From Gemmatimonadota bacterium (lineage in GTDB: Bacteria > Gemmatimonadota > Gemmatimonadetes > Gemmatimonadales > Gemmatimonadaceae): a stretch of 64,000 nucleotides of DNA. Shown piece after piece: positions 18,644 through 47,065 of this stretch (positions within the stretch are counted from its first letter, which is position 1; each line of letters starts with the position of its first letter). The stretch spans positions 186,001-250,000 of the forward strand of contig BJHH01000002.1 of NCBI GenBank assembly GCA_014192065.1, written 5' to 3'. The translations under genes and the position numbers were made by a program. The notes under the pieces were generated by a model, which saw only the letters and a program-made list of their open reading frames with translations, was not told the origin of the DNA and made no database searches.

Positions 18644-18663
18644 GATGGAAGACAATTGATACC

Positions 18664-18717
18664 CGTGGCGATTTGGAGGCAAATTGCGGCCACGTAAAAT
18701 ATTCAGCTAAAGCGCCT
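18664..18717 (+). ncRNA. SAM-II riboswitch aptamer upstream of metF
   Basis: The segment matches the compact SAM-II pseudoknot fold. Stem P1 is CGTGGC (18664-18669) with GCCACG (18689-18694). The loop begins GATTT and ends with a conserved TTGC. After P1 comes an A/T-rich linker and the hallmark GCTAAA (18706-18711). A second pairing AGGC (18677-18680) with GCCT (18714-18717) can close the pseudoknot. SAM-II binds S-adenosylmethionine and lowers expression of methionine/SAM genes; metF and metH follow directly. The resemblance is to the well-known metX aptamer from memory; a covariance-model search was not possible. Confidence 0.88.
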
Positions 18718-18719
18718 GT

Positions 18720-18751
18720 ACCCGGTGCGCCTCGTCGCCCCGGGTTTTTTT
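18720..18751 (+). terminator. Intrinsic terminator in the metF leader (riboswitch expression platform)
   Basis: Stem ACCCGG (18720-18725) pairs with CCGGGT (18740-18745). One mismatch and three inner pairs (GCG/CGC) extend it, the loop is 6 nt and a run of seven Ts follows (18745-18751). It lies 2 nt after the aptamer and ~70 nt before the metF start, so read-through must be conditional. GCGCC at 18712-18716 could alternatively pair with GGTGC at 18724-18728 as an antiterminator that excludes both the aptamer pseudoknot and the terminator. Confidence 0.82.
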
Positions 18752-40976: not shown

Positions 40977-41152
40977 ACTGCCATTCAGGCGACCAGCACG
41001 ACCAGTAACTGACCAGGGCCCCGCGCGTCCAACGGACGAGCGCTTGGGCGCGTACGGGAGAGTGTGATTGATGAGCGAACCGCGTGACCAGCGCCGCCCT
41101 GCCGGTTTGGGGTTTGCCGGTCGCAACCGCGAGGCGGCGGAACCAGTGGACT

Positions 41153-41698
41153 GTGGCTGAACGTCCGGCGAACGAGCGTGAGCTCGTCCTGGCCGCACAG
41201 CGCGGTCAGTCGACGGCGTTTTCGGAACTCGTGCGGATGCACGAGCGGCGGGCCTATGCCGTGGCGCGCGCGATTGTCATCAATCACGAGGATGCGGAAG
41301 ACGCCGTGCAGGACGGGTTCCTGCATGCGTACCGCGCCCTCGATCGGTTTTTGCCGGACCAGGCGTTTGGAGCGTGGTTGCACCGGATCGTCGCCAACGC
41401 GGCGCTGGACATCACGCGCAGGCGCAAGGTGCGCGACGCGGACGAGTTGCCCGAGACAGTGGCATCTCCGTTTCGCGACCCGGCCGAAGGCAGTGAGTTG
41501 CGAAGCAGGCTGCGGGCGGCACTGGAGACCCTTCCGGCGCGTCAGCGGTCCGTGATCGTGTTGCACGATGTGGAAGGGTTCAAGCATTCGGAGATTGGCA
41601 AGATTCTGAGCATTCCTGAAGGCACCGCCCGGTCGGATCTGCACTACGCGCGCAGTCAGTTGCGCGCGATCCTTGGGGAAGTGAGGAAGTCACTATGA
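41153..41698 (+). CDS. ECF-family RNA polymerase sigma factor
   Basis: A 181-residue sigma-70 family factor with sigma-2 and sigma-4 only. Region 2 is AFSELVRMHERRAYAVARAIV...DAEDAVQDGFLHAYRALDRF, region 4 LPARQRSVIVLHDVEGFKHSEIGKIL, with SIPEGTARSDLHYARSQL as the recognition helix. GTG at 41153 gives a normal ECF N-terminus. The following gene overlaps by 4 nt (ATGA) and encodes a single-TM protein, the usual anti-sigma arrangement. It probably drives the efflux cluster that follows. Confidence 0.92.
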   Translation: MAERPANERELVLAAQRGQSTAFSELVRMHERRAYAVARAIVINHEDAEDAVQDGFLHAYRALDRFLPDQAFGAWLHRIVANAALDITRRRKVRDADELPETVASPFRDPAEGSELRSRLRAALETLPARQRSVIVLHDVEGFKHSEIGKILSIPEGTARSDLHYARSQLRAILGEVRKSL

Positions 41699-42072
41699 AC
41701 GAAGACATTCACGGTCCAGAAGCCGTAACCCTCGTGCGCGATGACACGCTGACGAACGAGCTGCGGGCGATCTATGCCCCGCCGTCGAACGAGGCGTACT
41801 GGGCGACGCTTGAACAGCGCATCGTGGCAGCACTGGACGCGGAAGACGCCTGGTGGACGGTACCGGACCACTGGCTGCGCACAGGACTGATTGCCGCGGC
41901 GGTGACGCTGATCGTCGCCGGCGGACTCTTCCTGCGCGCGCAGGCGAGCCTGGACCGCACGATGGTGTACGAAAATGTGATCGAGGTCGAGGGACTTGGG
42001 TCGGCGCTCGCACAGCGTGAGCCACTTTCGCAGGAGCAGGCCACGCTGCGGAAGCTCACGGGACATCAATAG
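41695..42072 (+). CDS. Putative single-pass anti-sigma factor
   Basis: A 125-residue protein: an acidic cytoplasmic N-terminal part of ~60 residues (NELRAIYAPPSNEAYWATLEQRI), one TM helix (LIAAAVTLIVAGGLFL), and a short outside tail. The His-x3-Cys-x2-Cys zinc motif of ZAS anti-sigmas is absent. Anti-sigma is inferred only from the 4-nt overlap with the ECF gene, topology and context. Confidence 0.65.
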   Translation: MNEDIHGPEAVTLVRDDTLTNELRAIYAPPSNEAYWATLEQRIVAALDAEDAWWTVPDHWLRTGLIAAAVTLIVAGGLFLRAQASLDRTMVYENVIEVEGLGSALAQREPLSQEQATLRKLTGHQ

Positions 42073-42081
42073 GGGGCTGAC

Positions 42082-42480
42082 GTGTCTCGAACCAAGAGTC
42101 TCGCGATCGCCATGTACCTGGGTGCGGCGCTGGCCGGGGCAGCCATCGCGCTCGCGGCGGACCGTGCGGTGGATCGGAAGGGCCGCGCGCCGGGCAACCG
42201 GTCGCCGCGGGTCTGGTTTTTCGACCAGCTGAAACTCACGCCAGCACAGCGTGACTCGTTGACGGTCGTTCTCGACGACCGGGACAAGAAGTTCAAAGCG
42301 CTCATGGAAACGAGGAAGGTCATCCTCGATCCGCTTCGGGCGTCGCAGGACTCGATTGATGCCGAGTGGCGTCAGCGTTTGACGCAGCTGCTCACTTCGG
42401 AGCAGAAGGCGATTTATGACCAGATGCAGCAGGCGCGCCGCGAGCGAGAGCGAACGGGGCGCGGGGGAGATCGGAGATGA
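42082..42480 (+). CDS. Periplasmic LTxxQ-motif (Spy/CpxP-like) protein
   Basis: A 132-residue protein with an N-terminal signal/anchor and a helical mature part holding LTPAQ (52-56) and LTSEQ (104-108), the paired motifs of Spy and CpxP, periplasmic chaperone or envelope-stress sensor proteins. The GTG start follows AGGGG. It sits between the putative anti-sigma and TolC genes, overlapping tolC by 4 nt (ATGA), so it is probably a stress-response component of this operon. Confidence 0.82.
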   Translation: MSRTKSLAIAMYLGAALAGAAIALAADRAVDRKGRAPGNRSPRVWFFDQLKLTPAQRDSLTVVLDDRDKKFKALMETRKVILDPLRASQDSIDAEWRQRLTQLLTSEQKAIYDQMQQARRERERTGRGGDRR

Positions 42481-43799
42481 AGATGGGAATTCGCACCTTG
42501 ATGGTCACGTTGGTATTCCTGCCCTTGGCGCTTTCGGCGCAGGTGGTCGGCGACGCGCGTCCAATTTCGATCGACGAAGCCGTGCGGCTCGCGCAGCTGA
42601 ACCAGCCGTCGACCGTTGCGGCCCGGAACCAGATCAAGCAGAGCGAAGCCTCGGTTCGCCGGAATTTTTTCAACTTGGGATTCATCCCGACCCTCGGCAT
42701 CGGTGCCGGTGCGAATCAACGTGGCGGCGACCGATACGCGGAGGGCGTCAAGTTGCCGAGTACGGCGACTCCCTGGTCCTACGGCCGAAGCCTCAACATC
42801 GGATCGCTCACGCTGTTCGATGGCGGCACCAAGTGGAACACCTGGCGTCAGTCGCAGGCAACGCTCATGTCGAACGAGGCGGGCCTGGTCACACAGCGCT
42901 ACAACGTGGCGTTGACCGTCAAGACCGCGTACTACAACGTCGTGACAGCGCGTGAGCAGCGCGCAGCCGCGCAACGCCAGCTGGATCAGGCGGTGCAGCA
43001 GCTCGCCGTGGCGACGGCAAAAATGAATGCCGGATCGGCCACACGCACCGACTCCCTGACAGCTGCGATCGCGGTCGGCACGGCGCGGCAAGCGATCCTG
43101 ACCGCCGACAACAGCATCGCGAACGCGAACGCCGCGCTCACGCGCTATGCGGCCACGCCGTTCACGGTCACGGCCGTTGGCGGCGATTCCTCCAGTGTGC
43201 CGAGCATCGACGTCAGCGACACCGAACTTGTGCGCATGGCGCTTGTCGGGCCGCTCGTCTCCCAGAACACGGCTCAGCTTCGGGTGGCGGAAGCGCAGCG
43301 CCGCGTCGCGAACGCCCCGTACCTGCCGCAACTCACAATGAGCCTCAGCTACGGCTGGACCATTGAGAACTCGCAGAAATTCCAGGTGGCGGACGGTCCA
43401 AACGGCAACAGCACCGGACTTGGCTTCAACTTCAGCTATCTCATCTGGGACAACTTTGCGCGCGAACAATCGGTCGTGCAGACACGGATCGGCCACGAGA
43501 ATGCCGAAGCGACGTTGAAGGACAATCAGTTTGTCGTGCAGCAGAACCTGACGCAGCAGCTCAACACCTTCCGCACGGCACTGGCGTCGATCGAGCTGAA
43601 CAACCTGCAGATCGCCTCCGCCGAGGAAAACCTCCGCGTGGTGCAGCAGCAGTACAACCTTGGCGCCAAGCAGTTGCTCGACCTCATCACCGCGCAGCGG
43701 TCGCTCGACGACGCGCGCGCACAGCTCATCACATCGCGCCAAAATGCCCGGATCGCCAAGGCCAATATCGAGTCCATTATCGGACGCGACCTGAAGTAG
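42477..43799 (+). CDS. TolC-family outer membrane efflux protein
   Basis: A 440-residue exported outer-membrane/tunnel protein. A signal peptide ends at ALSAQ. Two OEP repeats follow: long heptad-like helices (IDEAVRLAQLNQPSTVAARNQIKQ; VKTAYYNVVTAREQRAAAQRQ; later QQNLTQQLNTFRTALASIELNN) with AEENLRVVQQQYNLGAKQLLDLI as the usual OEP ending. It joins the adaptor and permease that follow in exporting an unknown substrate. Confidence 0.9.
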   Translation: MKMGIRTLMVTLVFLPLALSAQVVGDARPISIDEAVRLAQLNQPSTVAARNQIKQSEASVRRNFFNLGFIPTLGIGAGANQRGGDRYAEGVKLPSTATPWSYGRSLNIGSLTLFDGGTKWNTWRQSQATLMSNEAGLVTQRYNVALTVKTAYYNVVTAREQRAAAQRQLDQAVQQLAVATAKMNAGSATRTDSLTAAIAVGTARQAILTADNSIANANAALTRYAATPFTVTAVGGDSSSVPSIDVSDTELVRMALVGPLVSQNTAQLRVAEAQRRVANAPYLPQLTMSLSYGWTIENSQKFQVADGPNGNSTGLGFNFSYLIWDNFAREQSVVQTRIGHENAEATLKDNQFVVQQNLTQQLNTFRTALASIELNNLQIASAEENLRVVQQQYNLGAKQLLDLITAQRSLDDARAQLITSRQNARIAKANIESIIGRDLK

Positions 43800-43905
43800 C
43801 ACGACGACTCGGTACGCCGGCGAGGCCTGCGTACGAGCCGCACGACAGATCGCACCAAGCACCCATCTTCACTTACGACGTTTTCGTCCCTACCGGGAGT
43901 ACGCA

Positions 43906-45744
43906 GTGAACCGCAAGCTTTTCGCCATCATCCTCGCGAGCACCTTCGCCTGCAACAAGCCAACAGTCCAGTCTGTCCAGATCAGCACGGCAACCGTCCA
44001 GCGGCGCGACATCGTCGTGCAGGCCGAGGCCACCGGCGTGATCGAACCGATCACCGTCGTCGAGGTCAAGTCCAAGACGGCGTCTGGCCAGGTGATCGAC
44101 ATGAACATCGAGGTCGGCACCTACGTCCGCCCCGGTGACCTGATTGTGCAGATCGACACCACCGACCTGCACACGACGCTGCTCCAGAATCTTGCCGACC
44201 TCACGGCATCGCAGTCGTCATACAACGTCGCCAAGACGGTGCTGGAGCGGAATACGACCCTCTACTCGCAGCGCGTCATCACCAAGGACGTGCTCGAACA
44301 GTCACAGAACTCTGAGGCCAGCGCCAAGGCCTCGCTCCAGCGGTCGCAGACGCAGGTCACACTGCAGATGCAGCGGCTCAAGGATTCGCGTGTCACGGCA
44401 GCAGCCGAGGGCACCATCCTTACGCGGCCTGTCGCCAAGGGACAGGTCGTGCAGGCCGGGTCAGGCGGTGTGAGTGCCGGCACGGTAATCGCCACGATGG
44501 CAGACCTCTCCAAAATTCGTGCGCGCACACTCGTCAGTGAAACCGAAATCGGGCAGGTCCGGATTGGACAGAACGCCGTGGTGCTCGTAGACGCCTTTCC
44601 GGACCGGGCATTCAACGGCACGGTGGAGAAGGTCGAGCCATCGGCTGTCGTGCAGCAGAACGTCACGATGTTTCCAGTGCTCATCTCGCTCGACAACGCA
44701 GATGGCCTGCTCCGCCCCGGCATGAACGGCGAAGTCAGCGTTCGCACCGATGAGCGCACGCAGGTGATCACGGTTCCAAACGACGCCATTCGCTCGACGC
44801 GTGAATACGCAGACGCAGCCCTCGCACTCGGCCTGAACCCCGACAGCGTACGCGCAAAGGCGATGCCGAACGGTGGTGGCCGCGGCGGCGCGGGCGCAGG
44901 TGGCGGCCGTCAGAGTGGCGGTGGTGAGGCCCATACGAGTCGCGCGGAACTCGATGCCTCGCTCATGCAGCGCGGTGACCCGACACAGGGTGGCGCACAG
45001 GGCGGCGCACAGGGCGGCGCACAGGGCGGCGCACAGGGCGGCGCACAGGGCGGCGCACAGGACGGACGGCGCGGTGGTGGTGGTGGACGCGGGCAGATGG
45101 TCGAAGTGACCGACGCCGATTGCAAGACGATCGACGACGCGCTCAAGGCCAAGCCGGCGCTCGCCAAAAAGCTGACGGATATTCAGGAGCAGATGCGCGA
45201 CCAGAACGCCGATCGTCAAGCACTGCGGACGCAGATGGAATCCGTCTACAAGGAACTCGGCGCTGACGCGGCAAAGGTCGCCGCCTGCCGGTTCAGGAAT
45301 GGTGGTGGTCGTGGCGGACGGAGCGGCCCGCAGGGCGCAGGCGGCGCGACCGCGCAGGGCGGAGCCGCCGCCATGCCGGCCGGCGGAATGGGCAGTGGTG
45401 GCCGTAGTGGTGGGCGCGGCGGCCGGGGCGGCGCGCGCCGCCAGGACCCGAACGCCACCCCACGCTCTGGCCTCGTGTTCGTCCTGAAAGGCACGACCTG
45501 GGAGCCACGTCTCCTCCGTCTTGGTATCGCCAACTACGACTTCACCGAAGTGCGGTCGGGTGTCGAAGAAGGCGAACAAGTCGCGCTGATGAGCGCCGCG
45601 ATCCTCCAGCTGCGCCGTCAACAGCAAATGGATCGCGTCAAGGGAATGGCGAGCCCGCTTGGTGGAGCGTCAGGCGGGATGAGTGGCGGCAGCCGTGGTG
45701 GTAGCGGCTCTATGGGTGGTGGCGGTGGGCGTGGTGGCAACTAA
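43906..45744 (+). CDS. MacA/HlyD-type membrane-fusion lipoprotein with long low-complexity insertion
   Basis: A 612-residue periplasmic adaptor. The lipobox STFAC is at the N-terminus. A lipoyl/barrel-sandwich region (IVVQAEATGVIEPI, SGQVIDMNIEVGTYVRPGDLIVQID), a helical hairpin and a beta-barrel (LRPGMNGEVSV) follow, with VPNDAI at 290-295. Instead of continuing into the membrane-proximal domain (resuming at ~520, RSGLVFVL), a ~220-residue insert intervenes. It holds Gly-rich segments, (GGAQ)6 at 362-385 and a helical hairpin with LTDIQ between Cys406 and Cys461. The start GTG follows GGGAG. It is 24 bp before the permease gene. Confidence 0.87.
   Translation: MNRKLFAIILASTFACNKPTVQSVQISTATVQRRDIVVQAEATGVIEPITVVEVKSKTASGQVIDMNIEVGTYVRPGDLIVQIDTTDLHTTLLQNLADLTASQSSYNVAKTVLERNTTLYSQRVITKDVLEQSQNSEASAKASLQRSQTQVTLQMQRLKDSRVTAAAEGTILTRPVAKGQVVQAGSGGVSAGTVIATMADLSKIRARTLVSETEIGQVRIGQNAVVLVDAFPDRAFNGTVEKVEPSAVVQQNVTMFPVLISLDNADGLLRPGMNGEVSVRTDERTQVITVPNDAIRSTREYADAALALGLNPDSVRAKAMPNGGGRGGAGAGGGRQSGGGEAHTSRAELDASLMQRGDPTQGGAQGGAQGGAQGGAQGGAQGGAQDGRRGGGGGRGQMVEVTDADCKTIDDALKAKPALAKKLTDIQEQMRDQNADRQALRTQMESVYKELGADAAKVAACRFRNGGGRGGRSGPQGAGGATAQGGAAAMPAGGMGSGGRSGGRGGRGGARRQDPNATPRSGLVFVLKGTTWEPRLLRLGIANYDFTEVRSGVEEGEQVALMSAAILQLRRQQQMDRVKGMASPLGGASGGMSGGSRGGSGSMGGGGGRGGN
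44989..45060 (+). repeat. Six tandem 12-bp units encoding (GGAQ)6
   Basis: GGTGGCGCACAG (44989-45000) is followed by five exact GGCGGCGCACAG copies (45001-45060). The repeat length is a multiple of three, so copy-number change would keep the adaptor protein in frame and only alter the linker length. Slippage-prone. Confidence 0.95.
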
Positions 45745-45768
45745 GCTCTCTCACACGGAGACCGTCCC

Positions 45769-46992
45769 ATGCTGATCGGCGAAACGATTCGCGTCGCACT
45801 CGGCGCCCTCAGAGCGAACAAGATGCGCTCGCTGCTCACGATGCTCGGCATCGTGATCGGTGTGGCGGCAGTCATCGCCGTGGTGGCGCTCGGAAACGGC
45901 GCACAAAAACAGATCAACGACCGTATCACCGCGCTCGGCACCACGCTGCTCACGATCAACCCCGGCCAGGCACAGCAGGGCGGTGTCCGGACCGGCGGCG
46001 GCGGCGGCGCGCGCCTTACAACGGACGACGCACAAGCGCTGATCGATCGCGGCACACGCATCCTCGCAGTGCAGCCCGAGATGGCCGGAAACCTGCAGGT
46101 CGTGTTCGGCAACAAGAACACGAATACGTCGATTGTCGGCACATCAGCCAACTACCCCGAAGTGCGCAAGTACGAAATCGAGTACGGGCGCATGTTCACC
46201 CACTCGGAAGACCAGACGCGCCAGCGCGTGGCGGTCATCGGCCCGACGGTCGCTGAAAACCTCGGGCTCGGCACGGGCCTCGGACTCGTCGGCGAAACAA
46301 TTCGCATCCGCGGCATTCAGTTCACCGTGGTCGGTTCACTCAAGTCGAAGGGATCTGGCGGCGCGTTCGGCAACCCGGACGACCAGGTGCTCATCCCGGT
46401 GCAGACCGCGCGCTTCCGGGTGCTCGGCAATAACCGCGTGCGCTCGATCGGCATACTTGCCCCGAACGAGGCGGAGATTCCGGAAACGATGGCAGACGTG
46501 CAGCAGATCCTTCGCCGCGAACACCGCCTGCGCCTAGGCCGCGAAGACGATTTCCAGATCCGCAGCCAGTCCGACTTCCTCAATACCCTGTCCGAAACGA
46601 CGCAGACCTTCGGCCTACTGCTCGCTGGCATCGCTGCCGTTTCGCTGCTGGTCGGCGGCATCGGCATCATGAACATCATGCTGGTGTCGGTTACGGAACG
46701 CACGCGCGAAATCGGCGTGCGCAAGGCGCTCGGCGCAACGCGGCTCAATATCATGTTCCAGTTTCTGATCGAGGCCGTGGTCCTCTGCATCATCGGCGGC
46801 GCGATCGGCATCGCCTGTGGCACAGGCGGGGCCACGCTCTTCACCCGCAACTTCGGCTGGACCACGACGATCGGACTCGAGTCCATCCTGATCGCGTTTG
46901 GCTTCTCGGCATTCGTCGGCGTCGTGTTCGGAGTGTATCCGGCACGTCGCGCGGCGGTCATGGACCCGATCACAGCGCTGCGCTACGAATAG
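45769..46992 (+). CDS. MacB-like ABC transporter permease (no ATPase domain)
   Basis: A 407-residue permease with the MacB/FtsX layout: TM1 (MRSLLTMLGIVIGVAAVIAVVA), a ~230-residue periplasmic core domain, then three TM helices (LLLAGIAAVSLLVGGIGIMNIML, ...IEAVVLCIIGGAIGIACG, ...ILIAFGFSAFVGVVFG). RTREIGVRKALGA is the coupling-region signature. MacB normally has an N-terminal ATPase on the same chain or next to it; none is encoded here or elsewhere in the cluster. GGAGA precedes the ATG. The cluster ends at the terminator just after this gene. Confidence 0.9.
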   Translation: MLIGETIRVALGALRANKMRSLLTMLGIVIGVAAVIAVVALGNGAQKQINDRITALGTTLLTINPGQAQQGGVRTGGGGGARLTTDDAQALIDRGTRILAVQPEMAGNLQVVFGNKNTNTSIVGTSANYPEVRKYEIEYGRMFTHSEDQTRQRVAVIGPTVAENLGLGTGLGLVGETIRIRGIQFTVVGSLKSKGSGGAFGNPDDQVLIPVQTARFRVLGNNRVRSIGILAPNEAEIPETMADVQQILRREHRLRLGREDDFQIRSQSDFLNTLSETTQTFGLLLAGIAAVSLLVGGIGIMNIMLVSVTERTREIGVRKALGATRLNIMFQFLIEAVVLCIIGGAIGIACGTGGATLFTRNFGWTTTIGLESILIAFGFSAFVGVVFGVYPARRAAVMDPITALRYE

Positions 46993-47007
46993 CACCGCCG
47001 ATCTACG

Positions 47008-47051
47008 AAAAAGAGAACGGCCCGGACTCGAGTCCAGGCCGTTCTCTTTTT
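47008..47051. terminator. Strong bidirectional intrinsic terminator
   Basis: A perfect 15-bp stem AAAAAGAGAACGGCC (47008-47022) / GGCCGTTCTCTTTTT (47037-47051) has an inner GGACTCGAGTCC palindrome in its loop. Each arm ends in five Ts when read as the 3' side, on both strands. It separates the plus-strand efflux cluster from the convergent tonB gene. Confidence 0.95.
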
Positions 47052-47065
47052 CCTCCTGGCCCAGC

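Follow-up and report, generated by a model that had tools for sequence, protein, structure and literature searches.

A six-gene operon of Gemmatimonadaceae appears to encode an autoregulated, ECF-controlled tripartite exporter whose regulation resembles that of Cnr/Ncc, whose transport machinery resembles MacAB-TolC, and whose ATPase is probably borrowed from a second exporter cluster; this is the reading that we favor, with reasonable confidence. The operon lies in a 64-kb window (the whole stretch of DNA that was analyzed) of a genome of 2.45 Mb in 16 contigs, referred to below as the source genome. On this reading, the partner of a Cnr-type sensor/sigma module is not an RND pump but an ABC exporter that acts mechanically. 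The operon is conserved in Gemmatimonadota, a phylum that is common in soils and lakes and in which stress responses have hardly been studied.

Organization and promoter of the operon

ORF and Pfam analyses placed six genes on the + strand at 41084-46992, in the order ECF sigma factor, predicted anti-sigma factor, LTxxQ protein, TolC-type channel, adaptor, and permease (Table 1). These are the genes, and the order, named in a preliminary description of the same DNA. That description also had the first four genes joined by 4-nt overlaps, which proved correct for two of the three junctions: ATGA overlaps link the sigma gene to the anti-sigma gene (41695-41698) and the LTxxQ gene to that encoding TolC (42477-42480), but the anti-sigma stop codon, ending at 42072, and the GTG start of the LTxxQ gene, at 42082, are separated by a 9-nt gap. 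Further downstream, the intergenic gaps measure 106 nt (TolC-adaptor) and 24 nt (adaptor-permease). The strong terminator that had been proposed for the end of the operon was borne out by the folding energy of a hairpin at that position (Table 1). A pattern scan for terminators missed this hairpin, probably because its T-tract is part of the stem, and such a scan of 8.5 kb for internal terminators gave two weak matches, fewer than in shuffled sequence. The gene 3' of the hairpin is TonB-C-like and convergent with the operon, and the hairpin, lying between convergent genes, may therefore serve both strands.

Table 1. Features of the operon and of the second exporter cluster. Positions are those of the window, except where contig C1 of the source genome is named.
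Feature	Position	Strand	Evidence or remarks
-35 element CCAACG, predicted ECF autopromoter	41029..41034	+	conserved CAAC-N17-CGTA 5' of sigma gene
-10 element CGTA, predicted ECF autopromoter	41051..41054	+	conserved CAAC-N17-CGTA
ECF sigma factor, 204 aa	41084..41698	+	PF04542 5.7e-18; PF08281 3.4e-15
Predicted anti-sigma factor, 125 aa, single-TM	41695..42072	+	ATGA overlap with sigma gene; AlphaFold; alignment
Spy/CpxP/Metal_resist-like LTxxQ protein, 132 aa, membrane-anchored or secreted periplasmic, predicted co-sensor	42082..42480	+	profile; Pfam of orthologues
TolC-type outer-membrane efflux protein (OEP)	42477..43799	+	PF02321 7.2e-44
Periplasmic adaptor, MacA/HlyD/RND-mfp type, probable lipoprotein	43906..45744	+	PF16576 5.4e-18
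Cys-paired helical insert of adaptor, flanked by Gly-rich linkers	45106..45291	+	V[TS]..C...CR; within Gly-rich 44870-45475
MacB-type (type VII) ABC permease without ATPase domain	45769..46992	+	PF12704 (MacB_PCD) 6.8e-50; PF02687 (FtsX) 2.2e-21
Cytosolic coupling-helix segment of permease, NIMLVSVTERTREIGVRKALGATRLNI	46672..46752	+	conserved in alignment
Terminator hairpin	47007-47052	+	-38.1 kcal/mol, z = -6.7; 0/200 shuffles equally stable
Second cluster in source genome	C1:608000-624000 (L115)		TolC-adaptor-ATPase-4-permease
Small secreted Spy-like protein, 126 aa	C1:611568-611945 (L115 3566-4054)	-	PF13801 only at E 0.096

Ahead of the sigma gene, the window and the sampled loci of its genus carry the element CAAC-N17-CGTA (equivalent to CCAACG-N16-CGTA within the genus) in essentially every case for which the upstream region was extracted. 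Outside the genus, CAAC-N17-CGT precedes the sigma gene in 13 of 14 Gemmatimonadaceae loci, and the 17-nt spacing recurs without exception in the 17 loci from two further families within the order (designated f2 and f3; Gemmatimonadaceae are f1). When CAAC-CGT pairs were counted at spacings of 10-24 nt, any spacing other than 17 was represented by at most one locus in each group. The exact CCAACG-N16-CGTA occurs a single time in the 64-kb window. Typical ECF promoters have a -35 element with an AAC core and a -10 element with CGT. As CAAC-N17-CGTA is ECF-like and lies 5' of the sigma gene, it is most simply read as the promoter of sigma itself; a search for an ECF motif ahead of 41153, which had been suggested as a check, thus yielded one whose spacing is fixed across relatives. 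A sigma-70 promoter for the operon was also considered and was rejected, as none was found there.

The conserved gene order and the fixed-spacing ECF promoter together argue that the sigma factor, anti-sigma factor, and Spy-like sensor, along with TolC, adaptor, and permease, constitute a real, probably autoregulated unit. The joining of a regulatory to an export part, as first described, is upheld by this order, by the one ECF promoter, and by the single strong terminator at the end. The conserved promoter also provides an immediate handle on the regulon.

The sigma gene was originally taken to start at 41153, a codon that is indeed GTG in most of the genus, but an earlier start is likelier. 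The ORF is open from GTG 41084, 29 nt 3' of the conserved -10 element, and because an in-frame start is retained at this position in most genomes of the genus, we consider 41084 probably to be the start of the gene.

Conservation across Gemmatimonadota

A sigma orthologue, at 65-93% identity, was present in 35 of the 36 other Gemmatimonadaceae genomes searched. The closest named relatives are metagenome-assembled genomes of this family, the top sigma (93%) coming from Lake Pavin. Among 20 Gemmatimonadaceae neighborhoods, the six genes occur in order in 13 (one of which, L048, has a broken-looking permease frame), and the regulatory trio of sigma, anti-sigma, and LTxxQ genes occurs without adjoining export genes in six or seven, one of these contigs ending shortly after the trio. 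The order was kept in all 17 loci of f2 and f3, as far as the contigs extend, and a scan of genome contigs found that named Gemmatimonadota carry the same gene order, matches outside the phylum being to sigma only. Conservation of the order in relatives, another check suggested at the outset, therefore extends through three families of the order and beyond, and it is this retention across families that places the arrangement far beyond chance. In four genomes (G021, G032, G033, and G035), the exporter has been relocated as a block, and only two of these four blocks have a motif of the right spacing upstream. That several Gemmatimonadaceae have the trio without the exporter indicates that sensor and exporter are separable. 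Two contigs labelled Candidatus Kuenenia and Gammaproteobacteria (L147 and L182) carry a typical Gemmatimonadota operon and are probably misbinned.

The regulatory proteins

The sigma protein consists of sigma regions 2 and 4 only and, among solved structures, resembles SigE/SigW more than CnrH. Its partner, the single-TM protein, is plausibly an anti-sigma factor, as judged from gene position, topology, and an AlphaFold model. Binding through two helices is known from class II anti-sigma factors, CnrY among them (PMC7406223). In the model, which makes the protein a candidate for that class, two cytosolic helices (residues 17-27 and 33-49) precede one TM helix, the last being part of a long membrane helix (55-97) that is followed by a short C-terminal helix (113-121). 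Pfam matched none of 22 family members. The zinc motif Hx3Cx2C of class I anti-sigma factors, sought in the cytosolic part of the protein, is absent, and the window protein contains no Cys. The alignment shows a motif conserved within the family at the C-terminal tail (roughly [EQ]xATLRxL in Gemmatimonadaceae), where the LTxxQ protein or a protease might make contact.

The LTxxQ protein of the window falls below the cut-off for both PF07813 and PF13801; among 25 orthologues, PF13801 was matched by 21 (E<=0.1, best 2.4e-10) and PF07813 by 15. Compared with solved structures, the LTxxQ profile found Spy (2.6e-6) and CpxP (0.011), and did not match CnrX. The model of the protein is all-helical. 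Searches with this model (Foldseek and VIA-align) returned no match beyond one meaningless viral one, and Foldseek returned none with the anti-sigma model, results that say little, because both models are small and helical. The window protein has neither His nor Cys, which indicates that a CnrX-type (His/Glu/Met) metal site is absent, though it may have a metal site of another kind, and the His found in the RRH region of the LTxxQ proteins of other families is not kept in Gemmatimonadaceae.

The exporter and its missing ATPase

The adaptor scored 160.6 bits against TIGR01730 (cut-off, 94.9) and has a conserved N-terminal Cys at position 14-15. The V[TS]..C...CR segment is carried by the adaptors of most Gemmatimonadaceae but by no adaptor from f2 or f3; the adaptor's GGAQ repeats are encoded beside it, by a tandem repeat with a 12-nt unit (44984-45065). 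This Cys-paired insert arose on the same branch, that of Gemmatimonadaceae, as loss of the ATPase gene.

Neither an ATPase gene nor an ATPase domain (ABC_tran) was found by Pfam in the window operon, and no Gemmatimonadaceae operon examined, the window included, has an operonic ATPase gene. Wherever the contig extends far enough, f2 operons have a separate MacB/LolD-type ATPase gene between those for TolC and the adaptor; within f3, it is absent from one genus but present in others. Mapped on the permease tree, the presence or absence of this gene requires at least three changes, which are best read as separate, repeated losses, since the lineages lacking the gene are nested among lineages that have it. 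In the ATPase tree, operonic and cluster-2 ATPases are separated (98/95) and the ATPase of Gemmatimonadaceae falls within the cluster-2 clade. On this ground we rejected the possibility that the gene had merely moved out of the operon in Gemmatimonadaceae; the placement indicates that it was lost, not moved.

The second cluster encodes TolC, an adaptor, an ATPase, and permeases (typically four), and is conserved across the order. Its ATPase is, in the source genome, the one nearest to an operonic ATPase, at 69% identity compared with 45% for the next best, and a close cluster-2 ATPase is kept in every ATPase-less genome searched. In MacB, the coupling helix contacts the ATPase and transmits its movement (PMC5985334); the corresponding segment, NIMLVSVTERTREIGVRKALGAT, is nearly identical whether or not the operon of the permease includes an ATPase gene. 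With its own ATPase lost, the exporter probably borrows that of the second cluster: the close cluster-2 ATPase and the nearly unchanged coupling helix, both read from sequence, make it likely that this ATPase drives the operon permease. The preliminary description had considered the system possibly self-contained, a view that cannot be maintained for an exporter without an ATPase and a regulatory trio that several Gemmatimonadaceae carry without the exporter. Repeated loss of the operonic ATPase would amount to a natural test of ATPase sharing by type VII ABC permeases, and if there were indeed several independent losses, such sharing would become a recurrent, testable evolutionary state.

A Spy-like gene beside the second cluster

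A gene encoding a small secreted Spy-like protein is located directly 3' of the last permease gene of the second cluster in the source genome, and most genus genomes have this gene. In the source genome, an exact CCAACG-N16-CGTA lies ~75 nt 5' of the gene. Of 15 genomes of the genus, 11 have AAC-N17-CGT[AT] 5' of the gene, each other spacing being represented by 0-2. These observations are suggestive of a second target of the operon's sigma factor, and no stronger, because (i) the -35 context before the Spy-like gene varies, being CCAACG or CTAACG, and (ii) another ECF gene of the source genome has AAC-N16-CGTC upstream. Many ECF factors share a -35 of AAC type. Across the source genome, the exact motif has six matches, compared with three for a reversed control pattern, so that most genome matches are due to chance.

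Comparison with described systems

The preliminary description knew of no described system with this exact set of genes; one with the same logic and a different inner-membrane pump does exist, namely CnrYXH-CnrCBA of Cupriavidus metallidurans, for which both the layout and the mechanism have been described (PMC4803752, PMC7689651). Like CnrYXH-CnrCBA(T)/Ncc, the Gemmatimonadota operon combines an ECF sigma factor, a single-TM protein (here a putative anti-sigma factor), and a periplasmic sensor of PF13801/LTxxQ type with a TolC-type channel, an adaptor, and an inner-membrane pump under the control (here probable) of sigma itself (PMC4803752, PMC7689651). However, CnrYXH-CnrCBA(T) has an RND pump, whereas the Gemmatimonadota operon has a MacB-type ABC permease; further, in the latter the sigma gene comes first, the sensor has no visible metal ligands, and the ATPase is absent in Gemmatimonadaceae. 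As neither the type of pump nor a CnrX-type metal site is shared, the operon falls outside the Cnr family. A literature search, in which few subscription journals were covered, found no described ECF / LTxxQ / MacB-type operon.

With MacAB-TolC and the type VII ABC exporters, the operon shares a TolC channel, an adaptor, and a permease with the MacB periplasmic core, FtsX domain, and coupling helix; it differs in being ECF-controlled and in that its ATPase is neither fused to the permease nor, in Gemmatimonadaceae, encoded in the operon. An ECF link exists also for YknWXYZ of Bacillus subtilis (adaptor, ATPase, permease), which is part of the regulon of the ECF factor SigW. By description, YknWXYZ likewise has a MacB-type permease with separate ATPase and adaptor, but it has no TolC and no Spy-like protein, its ATPase is encoded in the operon, and the sigma gene is located outside. 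Spy and CpxP resemble the LTxxQ protein in being helical periplasmic LTxxQ proteins, in line with the profile match. The window protein is shorter than Spy, ~28 residues being missing in the middle of the alignment, and possibly retains an N-terminal hydrophobic helix. Moreover, Spy and CpxP go with a two-component system, whereas the Gemmatimonadota LTxxQ gene is encoded with an ECF factor.

Proposed mechanism and alternatives

We postulate that the single-TM protein would hold sigma at the membrane by its two N-terminal helices, and that its short periplasmic tail and the LTxxQ protein, which would lie near the membrane, would be read as a pair. A signal in the periplasm that altered this tail/LTxxQ pair, perhaps the envelope damage proposed in the preliminary description, would free sigma, either by conformational change or by proteolysis. 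Sigma would then transcribe its own operon from CAAC-N17-CGTA, a step for which the promoter comparison gives strong evidence, resulting in positive feedback as well as production of TolC, adaptor, and permease. In Gemmatimonadaceae, where the ATPase gene was lost, the permease, with its coupling helix intact, would be driven by the cluster-2 ATPase. Sigma would probably also drive the small secreted Spy-like protein beside the second cluster, as the promoter evidence suggests. A bolder version, in which the exporter permanently shares the ATPase of a paralogous exporter and the same sigma drives a Spy-like chaperone beside that second exporter, is offered tentatively, as a possibility that we place somewhat short of even. 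If true, one stress switch would coordinate two type VII exporters via a shared motor.

The same genes could be read otherwise. Regulatory trio and exporter might be mere neighbors, with sigma mainly controlling other genes and the exporter serving in housekeeping efflux; the trio without exporter in several Gemmatimonadaceae, the displacement of the exporter in four genomes, and the 106-nt TolC-adaptor gap in the window would be in keeping with this. We nevertheless consider it unlikely, given the tight spacing and the 4-nt overlap into the TolC gene in the window, the single promoter, and the retention of the order in nearly all other lineages. The chance is smaller again, in our estimation, that the operon is a metal-efflux system proper, that is, a Cnr/Ncc homologue in which the LTxxQ protein binds a transition metal and the pump exports metal. 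Such a role would explain why the gene logic is that of cnrYXH-cnrCBA and why most LTxxQ orthologues match PF13801 (Metal_resist), and the adaptor does match the CzcB/NccB subfamily, although at 106 bits this is far under the cut-off of 319. Against it stand a MacB-type pump in place of an RND pump, a profile that finds Spy and CpxP and not CnrX, the RRH-region His that Gemmatimonadaceae have not kept, and the want of any His or Cys in the window LTxxQ protein, the site in CnrX being one whose metal coordination includes Met123 (PMC7689651).

It is also conceivable that the permease needs no ATPase or only senses, TolC, adaptor, and permease having turned passive or signalling after the ATPase was lost. 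That these three persist through at least three ATPase losses, and that the adaptor gained its Cys-paired insert on the Gemmatimonadaceae branch, could be understood in this way; however, the segment known for contacting the ATPase (PMC5985334) is unchanged, and a close cluster-2 ATPase accompanies the operon in every ATPase-less genome searched, so that we regard a permease working by itself as improbable, to about the same degree as metal efflux. The reading that we favor remains a sigma-controlled exporter driven by the ATPase of the second cluster.

Additional observations

Several Gemmatimonadaceae (L138, L168, and L174) carry a TetR-TolC-HlyD-MFS-type (EmrAB-like) set just 5' of the sigma trio. 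In the genus of the source genome, a paralogous ECF sigma gene (~43% identity) was found ~1 kb from another MacB-type permease gene (L082 and L083). Elsewhere in the window, an Rfam match at 18655-18730 corresponds to a SAM_alpha riboswitch (44 bits).
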